A stretch of DNA of 64,000 nt from Rhizoclosmatium globosum (taxonomy: Eukaryota; Chytridiomycota; Chytridiomycetes; Chytridiales; Chytriomycetaceae), in contig MCGO01000051.1 of NCBI GenBank assembly GCA_002104985.1, positions 228,247 to 292,246 of the forward strand, given 5' to 3'. The notes beneath the pieces were generated by a model. It was not told the origin of the DNA and did not search any database. It saw only the letters and a list, made by a program, of their open reading frames with translations. Within the stretch, counting starts at the first letter, position 1. Each line of letters opens with the position of its first letter. Made by a program: the position numbers and the translations under genes. Positions 41,039 to 47,885 of this stretch are shown piece by piece.

Positions 41039-41346
41039 TCAATAGTAAAAATCTTCCTCCATTTTGCTGACTATATTACGGGCCAAAGCATGCTGAAGTG
41101 CAAATAGTATACGACGATAAACAACAGCTACTGACACAGATTCTCGAATAACTTCCCGCTGCATCATCAAGCCACGCAACTTTTCTAAAAACTGTATAGA
41201 GCTCTTGCCTAACCCACCAGTAGTATCCAATACAAAGGGGACAAACTCTAGACCAATAGACTGACAACCCGACAAATACTTTTCATTCTTTGTAGATTCC
41301 CGTCCACGAACAGCATTTCCAACCTTAAATCCCACTAGGCCACGTG
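41039..41346 (-). mobile_element. Non-LTR retrotransposon, 3' part (C-terminus of ORF)
   Basis: On the minus strand this encodes the last ~100 residues of the retrotransposon protein whose main part lies at 45693-47885. Motifs are VRGRESTKNEKYLSGCQ, LEFVPFVLDTTGGLGKSS and ALQHALARNIV. Joined across the inserted DNA transposon with one copy of CACGTG, the frame continues without a break from VVHPLTSR into GLVGFKVG. The stop is at 41039. A short 3' untranslated tail probably extends a few tens of bases further left toward 40980, without a clear poly-A end. Confidence 0.8.
41341..41346. repeat. Target-site duplication, left copy (CACGTG)
   Basis: CACGTG at 41341-41346 matches 45693-45698 at the other end of the insert. 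The sequence is palindromic, so 4 bp (ACGT) or 2 bp (CG) duplications with correspondingly longer ends fit equally. With 6 bp the element begins TGT and ends ACA. Confidence 0.75.
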
Positions 41347-41366
41347 TGTTACAGCCGGAAGTGACC
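41347..41366 (+). repeat. Terminal inverted repeat, left
   Basis: TGTTACAGCCGGAAGTGACC. It pairs with the right end at 45673-45692 with three mismatches (positions 4, 8 and 18). Weaker similarity continues inward for another ~20 bp (both sides reach a TGTCC). Confidence 0.85.
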
Positions 41367-41639
41367 TCATACAGAAGTGTCCTTTATAGCTTTATAGCTC
41401 AGCCGTAACAGATACTTGGATTCAAGGATTCAACTGTTCGACAATATTGTATACTCCAACAAAACATCAACAAATCAACAAAGCGACAGTTCAACAAAGG
41501 ATCAAAGAACATGTTCAACGATTCACCACATCAACAATGGAGATACGCGGAAACACGTTCAACGATTCTACACTCCAACAACCCACCAACAATTCAACAT
41601 TAAAACAACTCAAAAGTTCTATAAGGGATCAACTCGAAC

Positions 41640-41985
41640 TCATCTTCAACGATTCAACACTTCAACAAAGGATTTACCTTTCTACGTTTCAACGATTCAA
41701 CGATTCAACGAAGGATTGACCTTTCTACATTTCAACGATTCAACACTTCAACGAAGGATTGACTTTTCTACATTTCAACGATTCAACACTTCAACAAAGG
41801 ATTGACCTTTCTACATTTCAACGATTCAACACTTCAACAAAGGATTTACATTTCCACGTTTCAACGATTCAACACTTCAACAAAGGATTTACATTTCTAC
41901 GTTTCAACGATTCAACACTTCAACAAAGGATTTACATTTCCACGTTTCAACGATTCAACACTTCAACAAAGGCTTCCAAAAAATT
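41640..41985. repeat. 43-bp tandem repeat inside the transposon, left subterminal
   Basis: About eight copies of a 43-bp unit containing TTTCAACGATTCAACACTTC and AACAAAGGATT. The spacing is 43 bp (for example 41759 to 41802). It lies between the left terminal repeat and the 3' end of the DUF3987 gene. Because 43 is not a multiple of 3, the open frames across it are not evidence for coding. Confidence 0.85.
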
Positions 41986-42030
41986 GAAAATGTGAATGAT
42001 AATAAATGCCAATTCTTTATTTGCAGTCTC

Positions 42031-43688
42031 TCACAGACTTTGAGAACAAGAAACAGAGGAAGGAACAACGTCTTCATCGTAATCTTCTTCCCCAACATCA
42101 TTGTTCCATTCCATTGTCTTCGACTTAATAATCAGTTGGGACTTTGGTAACTGCTTTTGGAGTTCGTTCAAAAAGCTCTTGATTCCATCAACATTTGCGT
42201 AGACTGAGGTTGTTGATTTGATAACTTTGTTGAGCTGTAAGTCCCGATTTGTGAAGGCTGTTTTTGACATTCCCGTTGCATCTAAACGCTTTTGAATCCA
42301 ATCCAGGAAGGACTTTCTGTTCCAAGCAAACAAATCCTCAATTGCTCTTGCTTTCTCTTTTCCAAGCCAGCACATTTTCACATCCATCAATACACCTACA
42401 ATTTTAATTGCGCCGAGAATTGATATTTTGGTGATGACCGGGCTCCAGGGCTCATTACCGAGAACTTTCGCCATTGTCTCAATCACAGCGGCAAATCTGA
42501 CAACCGCTCCTTTAGTTTTCCCATACGCAGCTAACATGTGGTTAGAAAATTCACGGAAATAAATGAACTAACCTTGGACTTTCGGGTTTTCTGTTCCTTG
42601 AATGAGGTGCGCAATTTGAGTGACGTAGTGTCCGTAGATAATCTCAGCTGATTTCTCCAAGCGAAAGTTGAAGGCGTTGGGATCATTATCAAGTAGGTGC
42701 TTCATTTTGATCCAAAGCTTGTCAGCAATGCTTTCAGTTTCGTAGGTTGCTTCTGAATGGGTGTTTTGAGAGGCTGTGGATGGGAAATCAGTCTCTAAGT
42801 CTCCAAAGTCTAGGTATGACGGAATCAAAGAATCTGGAAGCCGAATAGATGGCAGTGGCTTGACATTTTCCCATGTTGAGAGTCTTGGTTGAGGGAACAC
42901 GACCCAAAAACGCTCATTAAAACCTATAACATATAAGATAGCGAGAAGGCAGTCAATAACAAACCAGAAGCGTCCTCTTTTGCAAGGAACTTGTCGGCCA
43001 GCTCAGGTTGAAAGGCTCCAGTCATTACAAACCGAGTTGATGGGATCGATAACTTTTGTTTCACAAGTTGCTTGTTGATTCCTTCCCCATCATACATTGA
43101 CAAATATTGAGTTGTGTTCACGTACTCAGAGTTATCTCCTTTTCCTTTTGAAATGTTGTTGAGAAACACCTGAAACTCGTCCAAGTTACAAAGACCAACG
43201 CCATCTCCCTCACACAAGTTTGCGTTAAGGGCTTTAAAAATAAGAGTTAGTATTTGTATTTACGAAACGTTTGAATTAAATACCTTCAGGTGTGAATTCT
43301 TCCAGAATAGCATCTGGATGCAAGCAGTCCGATGCGATTGCTTTACCCACTTCCCTGCGGAAGTATTTGAAGACAGCAGACTTTCCAGAGCTGATTGGAG
43401 CAGCCAGTATCACCCACAACAAAGGAGGTTCGGACCATCCACCTGCAACATTGATGGTTGAATTTGGGCCCATCATCACTGAAGTGATACATGCAGCGGA
43501 GAAAAAGTGAGACTGGTATGGCATTGTATGGCATTCAGCTGGAGCTTTGATCAGTTTCTGACCGTACTATAATAATACAAACAGATGTTGAGCAGCAAAT
43601 CTGTAGTCTGTGAAACCAGCCACTTGTCAAGTTCGAGTTTCTCATAGCAAAGGGCTTGTGCCTTTTTGATCGCGTCTAAATTCACCAT
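42031..43688 (-). CDS. DUF3987-type P-loop ATPase/primase-helicase-like protein of the transposon
   Basis: Five minus-strand exons, 43688-43617, 43566-43284, 43231-42965, 42923-42573 and 42530-42031, sum to 490 residues. The start is an ATG at 43688. Features: a short helical N-terminus, YQSHFFSAACITSVMMGP (a pattern of DUF3987 openings), a Walker A motif PISSGKSA at about residue 74, a Walker B-like LCNLDEFQVFL, then RFVMTGAFQP and NERFWVVFPQPR, and a helical C-terminal half with KGAVVRFAAVIE. DUF3987 proteins are P-loop proteins best known from phage and mobile-element primase-helicase neighbourhoods. A role in element replication or DNA handling during transposition is inference. The gene diverges from the integrase gene across 221 bp. 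Confidence 0.72.
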
Positions 43689-43909
43689 GGAAGTAGTTGT
43701 GGGGGATCTAGTTGTGAATGAAGTGTTTCAACTTAAATTCTTTGACAATTCTGTAATTTGAGTCTCGACCAACTATTTGAATTCTTTGACAATTTCGGAA
43801 TGAATATGACAATTAGTCCAGGAGGAAGCTATTGGGTCGCGAACACATTGTAGAAATCAGAATTTGACAATCTCCCGTCCAGTTGAGGTCTTCAACATTC
43901 CATAGCAAT

Positions 43910-45472
43910 ATGGACGATAATTTGTATGAGGTAGTACTGGAAGCTAAGCGAACTCAGCGGAAGTTTGGAAACAAAAATAAGGTGGTGGGGAATCAAGTTT
44001 CTGTGATGAAGGCGAGCAAGGCATTTGAGATCTCCCAAACAGATGGTTCAAGACTGGTTTTCTTAAAAAACAATAGTTCTGGAATTCGAGTTGCAGTGGT
44101 TGTTGCCAGAAAGTCAGAGGTGTCTGACATCCTGAAACTTGCTCACGAAGATCGTCCGGCCGGAGTTGCCCATGGAGGGGGAATAAACAAAGCATGGGCG
44201 TGGATACAGGATCGCTATTATACAGGCAAATTAGCTGGGTCAGGAGTCAGGAGGGAAGCTCTGGAGGAATACATCAACAGCTGCGACTTTTGCAAGGACT
44301 TCTCTCGATTCACCAACAAAGCTCCTATCACACCCATTATCTACAACCGACCAATGGAACGATTCCAAATGGATTTGAAGAACTATTCGAATTTTGAGTG
44401 TGATGGAATGACGTGAGGTTACTTCGACCTCGATGTTCTCTAACAATGAAACAGGTGGCTACTTGCAGTTATGGACTGCTTTTCCAAGTTTCTTTGGTTA
44501 TTTGCACTGCCAAGAAAAGAGGCTCAATTTGTTATGGAGTGTTTGCAAACAATTTTTTCCAGGTTTGGGTGCGTCTGAAGTTTACGTCATTTGTCAGTAA
44601 TACTTGATACAGATACGGGGCTTGTGATATTCTTCAATCTGATAATGGGCCAGAGTTTGTGAATGAAATCATAATTGGGCTCCAAAAGATTTATGGATTC
44701 AGAATCATTCACGGCCGTCCGTACCATCCACAAAGTCAGGGTGTGGTTGAGAGGCAAAACCAATCAACAGGAATTCTGTGGGTTAAATTTAAGGAGTGGT
44801 GCAGGCAGAATGGAGTCCCTAATAGTCGGTGGGCTGATAACCTGGTGTTGGCAAGATTCTGCGAGGAACACAACAACTCTTTCCACCAGTCCATCAAAAT
44901 GACTCCATTTAACGTTTGTACTGGGTTTTTTATACGTATCTAACTGAACAAACATAACAGTGTCTCCACGGTAGACTTTCACGCGGACAAATGTCTGACC
45001 CATCCAAATTTGATTGCACAAATATTGTTTTGCATATATTGATGGATCTGCAGCGTTTGTTGATCGTGAAACGGGAGTTGTTGTTGAACCACCATCTGAC
45101 ATTCCAGTCCATTTAGAAGGTCCTATTGAAACTCGCGCAAAGCTGCTGCTTGCAGCCAGTGAGGCGCACGATGCAACCAAGAAGAAAATTGCTAAAAAGG
45201 GTGGAACTTTTGTATGTTTTGAAGTTGGGGATTCTGTTTGGGTGAAAGCAGTGAAAAACAAAGGATCGCAACGTGGTCAACAGACAAAGAGGATCCAGGT
45301 TCCAGGCACTATTGTGCGAGTGTGTACTTCAGGGCTGAATGAGCGTAACCATACCTATGATGTAATGGTTAGGATTGGAGATAGTGAAAGATTGGACGAG
45401 AAAGTTTCTGTTTCATTTATCAAGACTCGCAAAACTAAATGTGAGATGAATATTCACTTTTGTTCTCAATAA
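43910..45472 (+). CDS. DDE integrase-type transposase
   Basis: Four exons, 43910-44412, 44455-44562, 44613-44917 and 45054-45472, sum to 444 residues. An H2C2-like zinc-binding segment (VAHGGGINKAWAWI ... INSCDFCKD) precedes the catalytic core. The acidic residues are D in RFQMDLKNY, D in QSDNGPEF and E in HPQSQGVVERQN, as in retroviral/Gypsy-type rve integrases. MDCFSKFLWLFALPRKE, joined through a 42-nt intron, completes the fold. The C-terminal part (FEVGDSVWVKAVKNKG) looks like an SH3/chromo-like DNA-binding tail. No protease, RT or gag sequence is nearby, so this is a cut-and-paste-type transposase and not an LTR element. The 136-nt last intron has a weakly supported acceptor. Confidence 0.83.
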
Positions 45473-45672
45473 ATTTCGTTTATATCTTGCATATTTGGGT
45501 GACAATTTTTGGAAGTGTCCTCTGACTCTTTTCCCAGCTTAGTTTCCCAAGAACAACCACCGCCATGGTTCTATAAAGCATTGCAATGTCATTTGCTAAC
45601 CTCAAAATATACAGAAAAAGCGAGAATAAGACGAATTTGATTGATGAAAGGAGGAGGACAGTTGTGCGAGAA

Positions 45673-45692
45673 GGACACTTCCGGATGTGACA
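45673..45692 (-). repeat. Terminal inverted repeat, right
   Basis: Read on the minus strand this is TGTCACATCCGGAAGTGTCC, the partner of 41347-41366. The element's last base is 45692, immediately before the second CACGTG. Confidence 0.85.
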
Positions 45693-45698
45693 CACGTG
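45693..45698. repeat. Target-site duplication, right copy (CACGTG)
   Basis: The second copy of the 6-bp target sequence flanking the DNA transposon. It also belongs to the interrupted retrotransposon ORF (codons for S-R). Confidence 0.75.
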
Positions 45699-47885
45699 AG
45701 GTAAGTGGATGAACAACACTGATATCCACACAAACAGTTTTTCCATCATAAAAGTCATAGACTAGAAGATCAGCTGGCCAAAGATCTCCTGAACTTGAAG
45801 GCAGGCGAACTTCGCCATTCTCCCGACAAAGGATTCCAACTTGACGAACCAGAGCAGCCAAAGTATCTCTTAAGAAATTATGTCTACTCCAAGAGCCTGA
45901 GTGACCCCCACAGCAGAAAGCATGATCACCAAACAAATCCATCACATGTTCACAATGACGACAACGACGACGGCCTGTATAGAGCGGCATGAGAAGGCGA
46001 TAGCGGAGGATAGCACGGTATTCTACAGGAGACATAACCAAGTGCAGACCTTCCATTGGAAGAGCCAACAAGAACGACGATGCATGTTGCTGGGTAAATG
46101 ATTGAAGTAAAGCCTGATGACGAGGGAGAAACCGTCCTGTGGACTTGTCAAACCAACGCAAATCATTTCCAGATGTTGCCAAGAACTCCTTGTGAAGAAC
46201 TGAATTGAAGACTCCCGCCAAATGTTTTTGTGTTGGAGAGGTAGAGGATGAGACTTCATTACGGAGAACATCAACAGAGGGGTAAGACAAGCGGGATGAA
46301 AGAGAGACAAGTACTGAATCAAACATAGGACCAAAAGGAGACAGACCAGATGATGACAAGATGGCAGACTGAAGAGGGGCTGTAGACAGAACAGAGGCTA
46401 CATAGGCATAATGAACAAGGTGAGAAGCCTGAGAGATTCCAAGGCCCCCAGATGACAGAGGTAAACCAGTAAGCAAGAACTGGAAATCAGAAAGACTGCA
46501 CCCAACAATATTTGTCAGAGCCTTGCGAAGAACTGCATCAAAGTCTGAGACTCCCCTAGATACTACAGAAGGGTGCATTGTGCGCATTGCATACACCAGC
46601 TTAGGGATCCCTAAACAAGCACGAAGCAAAAGAAGCTGACATTGCGGATCATGCAGGGAAACTAGCGACTCAATTGCGGAGGAACATTTGGATACACGAT
46701 GGCAAAACTGAGCCTCATAAAACGAAGGGTTTCCAGACACTGCCCCACCAAGAAGCTTGACCCCACTTTCTGGCTGGACCTGGATGATACCTGGAGGGAA
46801 CAGGCTTCTTCGAGGGTCAAAAGTTGGCCAATATACTTCTCATTTAAACAGATTAGCATGCAGTCCAAGAGATGGTCCCTCACGAGTTATAACATCAAAG
46901 GCAGCAACCATTTGAAGAGTGTCTCCATGAAGAGTCCAGTCATCCATAATAGCACCCGTATGCATAACCTGGCACTGATTATACACAGACTTCTGAAGAA
47001 CAGCAAGCACAAGACAGAATAACAATGGGCCAAGGGGATCCCCCTGCTGAACTCCAGTGCAAGATCCAAATGATTTATCCCCAACAAAGAGCCAGCTCTT
47101 ACAGCCATATGTATATCCCACCCAGTTCAGCAGAACAGGACACATTTCACGTACTTGTGCAAACATAGCTTCCCGAGACACCAAATTGAAGGCATTTTGA
47201 AAGTCAACGAAAAGGAGACATTCAAGCAATTCAGCTCTCTCAGCAACAATACGGTTAAATGCGTGAAGAACAGCTTCCACTCCCCCAGAAATAGCAACCC
47301 CATATTGATGAACGCTTTGCAAATACTGAGACATAGGAAGCTTAACTCGTGCCATACCCAGCTTTGAGACAAGTCTACGCAAAATCATTCCCACTGCAAT
47401 AGGTCGTACATCATTGTCAGGCTTTTTAAGGGGTGTCAATCCAGCTGAGGCTATGTATGGAGCAATTGAGGGAGGGGCTAGTCCTCCAAAGAGCAAATCA
47501 CAGACTGTGGTAAGTGCATCAAGAAGGCGGGGGCCAATACCACCTGCCGCAGAATGGAGCATATCAATCAAGTGGGTTGCACGCAAACCATCACGTCCAG
47601 GAGCTGTTCCTTTAGCAAAAGTCATCAAAGCAGCTTTGACCTGGTCAACACTAAAATGTGAATGAGAGCCAATAAGATTAGGATGACAAAGGGGGACTTC
47701 ATTTGAGGATGCTTAGCCAGGAGCTTTTCCATAACCTCTGATGATGCTGAGTGAACACCTGATGACTGCAAGAGTTTAATAGCTGCTGAAAATTGACCAT
47801 CCCTCAGCTTCTGTTTACAGCGGCTTGCAAGTACTGATTCACTGGGTTGGTTTGTAATTTGTGTCTTTGGGTGTTGGCACACTCA
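45693..47885 (-). mobile_element. Non-LTR retrotransposon with reverse transcriptase and RLE-type endonuclease, 5'-truncated and dead
   Basis: On the minus strand the protein contains reverse-transcriptase blocks: APGRDGLRATHL, PIAVGMILRRLV, VDFQNAFNLV, GVQQGDPLGPLL and the catalytic MDDW. Downstream are a zinc knuckle (CRHCEHVMDLFGDHAFCC) and a restriction-like endonuclease signature (WPADLLVYDF...VCVDISVV), as in RLE-bearing non-LTR elements. There is a frameshift near 47690 (KHPQMK in one frame, PLCHPNLIG in the next), an in-frame TGA at 46842-46840, and the DNA transposon insertion. The copy stops near 47885 without its 5' part, as in typical 5'-truncated insertions, directly against the aspartic protease gene. 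Confidence 0.87.

Follow-up and report, generated by a model that had tools for sequence, protein, structure and literature searches.

Eukaryotic cut-and-paste transposons usually comprise a transposase, sometimes accompanied by a captured gene or domain such as OTU, Ulp1 or TET/JBP. Among those employing an integrase-type transposase, Ginger1 uses a CCGG target, generates a 4-bp target-site duplication (TSD) and encodes a single protein, Ginger2 uses RTATAY (PMC2836005), and IS3EU/GingerRoot elements combine an integrase-related transposase with a 6-bp TSD (PMC10045372). Here we describe an element from a stretch of contig MCGO01000051.1 of the chytrid fungus Rhizoclosmatium globosum (positions 228,247 to 292,246; the whole stretch of 64,000 nucleotides is referred to as the window), which carries between inverted ends two divergent genes, one for an integrase-type transposase and one for a P-loop protein of the DUF3987 family. 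Almost certainly it is an integrase-type, Ginger-like DNA transposon of this fungus that moves by cut-and-paste and has been mobile recently, and the best overall explanation, to which we assign a probability of roughly 0.58, is that of a Ginger-like transposon with a captured, helicase-like accessory DUF3987 gene. An earlier note on this DNA had already recognized an integrase-type, Ginger-like transposon whose inverted ends enclose a DUF3987 gene, which is upheld here; its further proposal of an undescribed class of element is not, the transposase, TGTNR ends and cut-and-paste anatomy all falling within known integrase-type DNA transposons.

The element is probably related to the Ginger-type cut-and-paste transposons. 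It resembles Ginger2/Tdd in its integrase-type DDE transposase, H2C2-like residues, TGTNR termini and preference for a palindromic target, and in the absence of both the GPY/F and the YPYY motif (PMC2836005). It differs in the 6-bp CACGTG duplication (against a TSD of 4-5 bp and RTATAY, a consensus matched under neither reading of the TSD discussed below), in terminal inverted repeats (TIRs) of ~17-21 bp rather than at least 45 bp (PMC2836005, Table 2), and in the extra divergent DUF3987 gene. With IS3EU/GingerRoot it shares the 6-bp TSD and an integrase-related transposase, whereas IS3EU ends are TA..TA (GingerRoot occasionally TG..CA) rather than TG..CA, and the HHCC motif, whose residues are recognizable here despite a weak profile score, is described as missing from IS3EU (PMC10045372). 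The IS3EU elements of rust fungi likewise carry a captured accessory gene, TET/JBP in place of DUF3987, and the TIRs of these TET-bearing elements exceed 30 bp, as opposed to ~17-21 bp in the present case (PMC12730594). Polinton/Maverick elements also unite an integrase with a 6-bp TSD, and according to the same source as for IS3EU they have no HHCC motif (PMC10045372). No DNA polymerase or capsid-like genes of the Polinton kind were seen between the ends of our element. Polintons are much larger, and encode both DNA polymerase and capsid proteins. Because the target rules of Ginger1 and Ginger2 fail, and because the TSD length of IS3EU/GingerRoot is matched and their usual ends are not, we regard the element as a variant of integrase-type DNA transposon, to be placed in no subfamily and not shown to be a separate class.

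Ends, target site and empty sites

The transposon occupies positions 41347-45692 of the window (4346 bp) and has imperfect inverted ends (TGT..ACA), with a CACGTG duplication outside both (41341..41346 on the left and 45693..45698 on the right). Its TIRs, at 41347..41367 on the plus strand and 45672..45692 on the minus strand, differ at two positions over 17 bases and at three over 21; with CACGTG included, the arms of the inverted repeat extend over 41341-41367 and 45672-45698. The termini, TGTTA and TGTCA, have the TGTNR form, and the ends read TG..CA. With TG..CA taken as the ends, the duplication measures exactly 6 bp, while a 4-bp ACGT reading would need a start at GTGTT rather than TGTT.

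The genome searched consists of 56.9 Mb in 420 contigs, the window lying within the contig labelled C368 (other loci are cited by labels of the same kind). It gave 39 matches to the Fungal_trans family, in keeping with a fungus; 14 control genomes gave none, but those named among them are prokaryotes, which makes them a poor guide to other eukaryotes. The TIR pattern TGTNACANCCGGAAGTG found 16 exact matches in it and seven with one mismatch, against none for a reversed-pattern control, and CACGTG directly adjoins every one of the 16 exact matches. Of the seven, one end of an old copy, C179, was recovered, the complete 23-mer then containing two mismatches; the other six were not recovered. Within the window itself the hexamer is scarce, occurring three times, two of these in the element's own duplication, as compared with a shuffle mean of 11.65.

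Two clean empty sites document the insertion. In the window, the element interrupts the reverse-transcriptase open reading frame (ORF) of a repetitive non-long-terminal-repeat (non-LTR) retrotransposon; all five paralogues that were fetched are uninterrupted, have a single CACGTG, and share 48-50 of 50 bases with the joined flanks. The other site is a single, 99% identical paralogue of the right flank of copy C27, found on C212, with one CACGTG and 60/60 matching bases. This pair of near-identical flanks, C27 with the element and C212:126930-127130 without it, may be allelic or may stem from a recent duplication; it suggests that the insertion is recent or polymorphic, and hence recent movement. 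The right flank of a further copy, C146, had no second copy in the genome search. A model without a TSD, in which CACGTG would belong to the TIR, was ruled out, because a single CACGTG stays in the empty sites.

Inside the left end lies a subterminal array of 43-bp tandem repeats (41645..41972, plus strand; 7.6 copies), composed of TTCAACNN-like octamers, whose extent varies among the window, C27 and C146. Since related sequence (~72-80% identity) is retained also in short, non-autonomous copies, the array is a candidate transposase-binding region.

The two genes and their copies

The two genes diverge across 221 bp between their start codons (43689..43909) and span exactly 42031-45472, inside the inverted ends, as originally described. 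Their identities are also borne out. The plus-strand gene (43910..45472; exons 43910-44412, 44455-44562, 44613-44913 and 44961-45472) encodes the integrase-type transposase, which matches rve (PF00665) at 1e-15 under a first exon model and 1.2e-15 under a second (58 bits, against a cut-off of 32.6) and has catalytic residues D155, D214 and E250 in DD35E spacing. The first of these models, with a fourth intron of 61 bp, was dropped in favour of the second, with three introns and four exons, which the other copies and homologues fit. The Integrase_H2C2 profile (PF17921) scored below its cut-off (0.013 and 0.06), although H79, H88, C125 and C128 are present. Neither GPY/F nor YPYY was found as a pattern in the 474-residue protein.

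This four-exon model is open in C27 and C73, and its C-terminal half aligns with database relatives. In the window, a run of T at ~45023 has four residues, as against five in each of the four other copies inspected (C27, C146, C73 and C113), and under the exon model of its relatives the window gene is frameshifted in the last exon, so that the first stop falls at residue 356, beyond D155, D214 and E250. Because the run is one base shorter than in all four others, the window copy of the integrase is probably broken; the view that both genes are intact after splicing thus holds for DUF3987 and not, in all probability, for the integrase. The window frame stays open only with other introns (a fourth, 61 bp long, or a single intron of 118 or 136 bp), by which an altered but open product may be made.

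A database search with the integrase protein yielded 48 relatives among 4506 candidates. The resulting tree, of 52 rows, included 46 of the 48 and five of the 14 integrase loci tried from the same genome (the other nine gave no usable row). It places the integrase in a clade with six proteins at 38-42% identity (support 100/99). Its sister clade, joined with support 90/94, includes an OTU-bearing protein, with KRAB-A-domain-2-like proteins near by; these neighbours recall Ginger, in a tree that has no labelled superfamily references. Four of the five integrase ORFs from this genome form a separate 100/100 clade, presumed to be Gypsy, and the fifth remains unplaced, on a long branch. Comparison of the integrase alignment with genome contigs gave a match in one of 54 stretches (50 residues, bacterial), and with viral contigs in one of 304, on IMGVR_UViG_3300012979_000026, which encodes an integrase relative at 30% identity.

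The minus-strand gene (42031..43688; exons 43688-43617, 43566-43284, 43231-42965, 42923-42573 and 42530-42031) encodes a 490-residue P-loop protein, a predicted ATPase. Its spliced product matches DUF3987 (PF13148) at 6.8e-22 (78.6 bits, against a cut-off of 27) and the phage family PHROG 2373, "DNA helicase", at 8e-16; it has a Walker A motif (GKS, 85-87), a Walker B motif (DE, 136-137) and R212, all common to a relative on C301 described below. Searches of the protein, viral and phage collections gave no close relative. None of 6159 candidates from the protein database matched at E <= 0.001, and a two-sequence DUF3987 alignment retained one of 6679, a distant DUF3987 protein (96.6% probability in profile comparison). 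The alignment matched none of 600 stretches of viral contigs, and a tblastn comparison with phages gave no match at E <= 0.01. The one match in the Protein Data Bank, to an autophagy protein (0.0077), was taken as chance. A Pfam DUF3987 scan of the genome returned no matches, missing even the window copy, with introns as the probable cause; a protein query did find that copy. In a published analysis, the primase-linked DUF3987 ATPases of bacterial and archaeal mobile elements are predicted to be helicases of mobile-element replication (PMC5862659). The present protein resembles these bacterial and archaeal ATPases in having its P-loop domain encoded by a mobile element, with a helicase-like prediction (PMC5862659), but differs from them in that no primase match was found in the element, the gene is eukaryotic and intron-containing, and no phage match was obtained at the above threshold.

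A DNA search with the element gave 19 matches at at least 10 loci: four with both genes, one deletion derivative without DUF3987, and five short copies without either. Among the four long copies, C27 is the sole one in which both genes are open. The window copy has an open DUF3987 gene and a frameshifted integrase, C73 an open integrase and a deletion in DUF3987, and C146 has both genes broken. The deletion derivative, C113, is a right part only, from inside the first integrase exon onward, the DUF3987 gene being gone; the short copies (C370, C414, C334, C112 and C179) consist of subterminal repeats and the right end, with no match to either gene among the matches listed. Gene-region identity among the long copies is 98.8-99.9% (five of six pairs measured), and because of this identity we regard them, from their sequences, as one recent family, in which the co-occurrence of the genes is a single ancestral association and no evidence of independent partnership. 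The expectation that both genes recur within matched ends is therefore confirmed for the presence of their sequence in all four long copies, and qualified by their both being open only in C27. Conversely, derivatives that lack DUF3987 and have the same or similar ends, which the earlier note had named as evidence against the pairing, do exist in C113 and the five short copies, but none of them retains a whole integrase gene.

A second DUF3987 lineage and the possible role of the gene

The only other DUF3987 lineage found in the genome is represented by a gene present both on C301 (148.3-149.7 kb) and on C101 (67.0-68.4 kb), and by a fragment on C52. The C301 gene (PF13148, 1.2e-11) is full-length and 33% identical to the window protein. 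Two of the window introns (42924-42964 and 42531-42572) fall, as judged by eye, at the same aligned codons and in the same phase in the C301 gene, and since these positions coincide the two genes probably share an intron-containing ancestor. In a repeated unit of ~10 kb (C301:146825-157700; also on C101), possibly a tRNA-Leu-targeted element, the DUF3987 gene is joined by a TET/JBP-like gene (PF12851, 1.9e-8; its 34.1 bits fall just short of the cut-off of 34.9) and by a convergent, recombinase-like gene, a probable Crypton-type tyrosine recombinase. The recombinase ORF is identical at C301 and C101, and five distantly related sequences (22-25%) occur at other places in the genome. A published survey of transposons with TET/JBP genes lists, in its accessible part, three Dikarya groups and other superfamilies, and no Crypton (PMC12730594). 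On C301 and C52 one end abuts a tRNA-Leu(CAA) gene, and on C101 it abuts a different tRNA-Leu-like sequence, without an ARAGORN call.

By analogy with its family, the DD35E integrase would bind the TGT..ACA ends, excise the element, and join it to both strands of the palindromic CACGTG at points six bases apart, after which gap repair by the host would yield the 6-bp duplication. The DUF3987 protein would be an accessory P-loop ATPase acquired by capture, akin to the helicase-like ATPases that accompany primases in mobile elements of bacteria, and may process or repair element DNA, whether by unwinding after excision, by gap repair, or by copying of an excised form. That it acts on element DNA in such a manner, rather than in target choice, is a tentative proposal, favoured because the sole genomic relative adjoins a probable tyrosine recombinase. 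To our knowledge, no MuB/TnsC-like step exists in tyrosine-recombinase chemistry. A helicase-like ATPase is favoured because the published prediction for DUF3987 is that of a mobile-element replication helicase (PMC5862659).

The strongest alternative, although we consider it somewhat unlikely, is that the DUF3987 gene is a passenger, picked up by one ancestral copy and not needed for transposition. Fixed differences between two subfamilies, {window, C146} and {C27, C73}, comprise eight synonymous and two nonsynonymous changes in the integrase (ratio of nonsynonymous to synonymous rates, dN/dS, ~0.07), which shows purifying selection on this gene between subfamilies; the same contrast in DUF3987 gives three synonymous and seven nonsynonymous changes (dN/dS ~0.65). 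A direct comparison of the window with C27 is similar, with nine nonsynonymous and four synonymous differences in DUF3987 as against two and 10 in the integrase. The contrast between the genes rests on small numbers and is not significant (Fisher p = 0.07). DUF3987 is nonetheless without detectable purifying selection in the recent spread of the family, and is therefore perhaps dispensable for movement. The ~99% identity of the long copies, by which the association could be recent, and the still open integrase of C73, which has lost part of DUF3987, favour a passenger as well. These observations weigh against an accessory function, as do certain aspects of the second lineage: neighbouring ORFs of the recombinase-like gene gave sub-threshold matches (GCR1_C 0.015, Phage_integrase 0.14, NDC10_II 0.19), two of its three ORFs gave nothing in a profile search at E <= 0.1, and its motifs are ones that, by eye, we take to be those of a tyrosine recombinase. 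The analysis, moreover, covers one element family in one genome. Set against a passenger are the DUF3987 frame, which is open in the window and in C27, one member of each subfamily, the conservation of architecture over the full length, of P-loop motifs and of two intron positions relative to the 33% identical C301 protein, and the second repeated unit, which carries the same kind of gene.

Less likely than a passenger, and in our view improbable, is a target selector of the kind suggested in the earlier note. The DUF3987 ATPase would then, like MuB or TnsC, assemble on target DNA and hand CACGTG to the integrase, making the element a eukaryotic two-component transposon of the Mu/Tn7 type. The sequence of both genes between the ends in all four long copies, the Walker A and B motifs with their shared arginine, and the strikingly specific targeting are consistent with it. 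However, Ginger elements are themselves described as preferring palindromic targets, Ginger1 doing so with a single protein (PMC2836005), so the specificity for CACGTG needs no ATPase partner. The suggestion is weakened further by the probable tyrosine recombinase that accompanies the other DUF3987 gene, and by the lack of purifying selection on DUF3987. MuB and TnsC, for their part, provide target capture and immunity, not hexamer specificity. A quite different possibility, that a Gypsy LTR retrotransposon left the integrase behind as a fragment and that the inverted ends arose by chance, can be virtually dismissed. Gypsy elements and integrase-type transposons share this kind of integrase, and rve matches in the genome number at least 79; yet none of the exons tested between the ends matched reverse transcriptase, protease or RNase H in Pfam, the neighbouring reverse transcriptase belonging to the interrupted non-LTR element and not to the integrase. 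The CACGTG at 16 of 16 exact TIR matches (none in the control) and the separation in the tree from four of five integrase ORFs of the same genome speak against a Gypsy origin, and the two empty sites contradict it.

A more far-reaching interpretation, which we consider doubtful, is that of a new, strictly CACGTG-specific lineage of integrase-type transposons with 6-bp duplications, in which DUF3987 would be a working second component and, more generally, a recurrent accessory module of fungal DNA transposons. If true, DDE and tyrosine-recombinase elements would have DUF3987 in common, in much the way that TET/JBP recurs across superfamilies. Were a phage- or plasmid-type DUF3987 ATPase to reside in two different mobile units of a single fungus, it would constitute a new accessory module and open ATPase-assisted transposition or repair in eukaryotes to testing. 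Fixed targeting of CACGTG is unusual for an integrase-type enzyme, and the clean empty sites ease its assay. In the open-access literature (subscription papers and Repbase, where an entry is possible, being outside its scope) no report, judged by titles and the opening of abstracts, joined DUF3987 with a eukaryotic transposable element, those on DUF3987 together with transposons and integrases being bacterial; the combination of a CACGTG target-site duplication and a transposon led only to rice mPing and the wheat VRN genes, and no Ginger element of a chytrid was evident, judged by title.

The interrupted retrotransposon

The non-LTR retrotransposon that hosts the insertion lies on the minus strand on both sides of the element. 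The 3' end of its reverse-transcriptase ORF (41039..41340) is host sequence, outside the transposon, and the upstream part of the same ORF extends over 45699..47712, with a match to RVT_1 (3.6e-11) in 46843-47712. It has 28 matches listed in the genome, the window counted, of which 23 are at least 96% identical over the matched part. In the window copy of the retrotransposon an in-frame stop codon (46840-46842) separates the two parts of the ORF.

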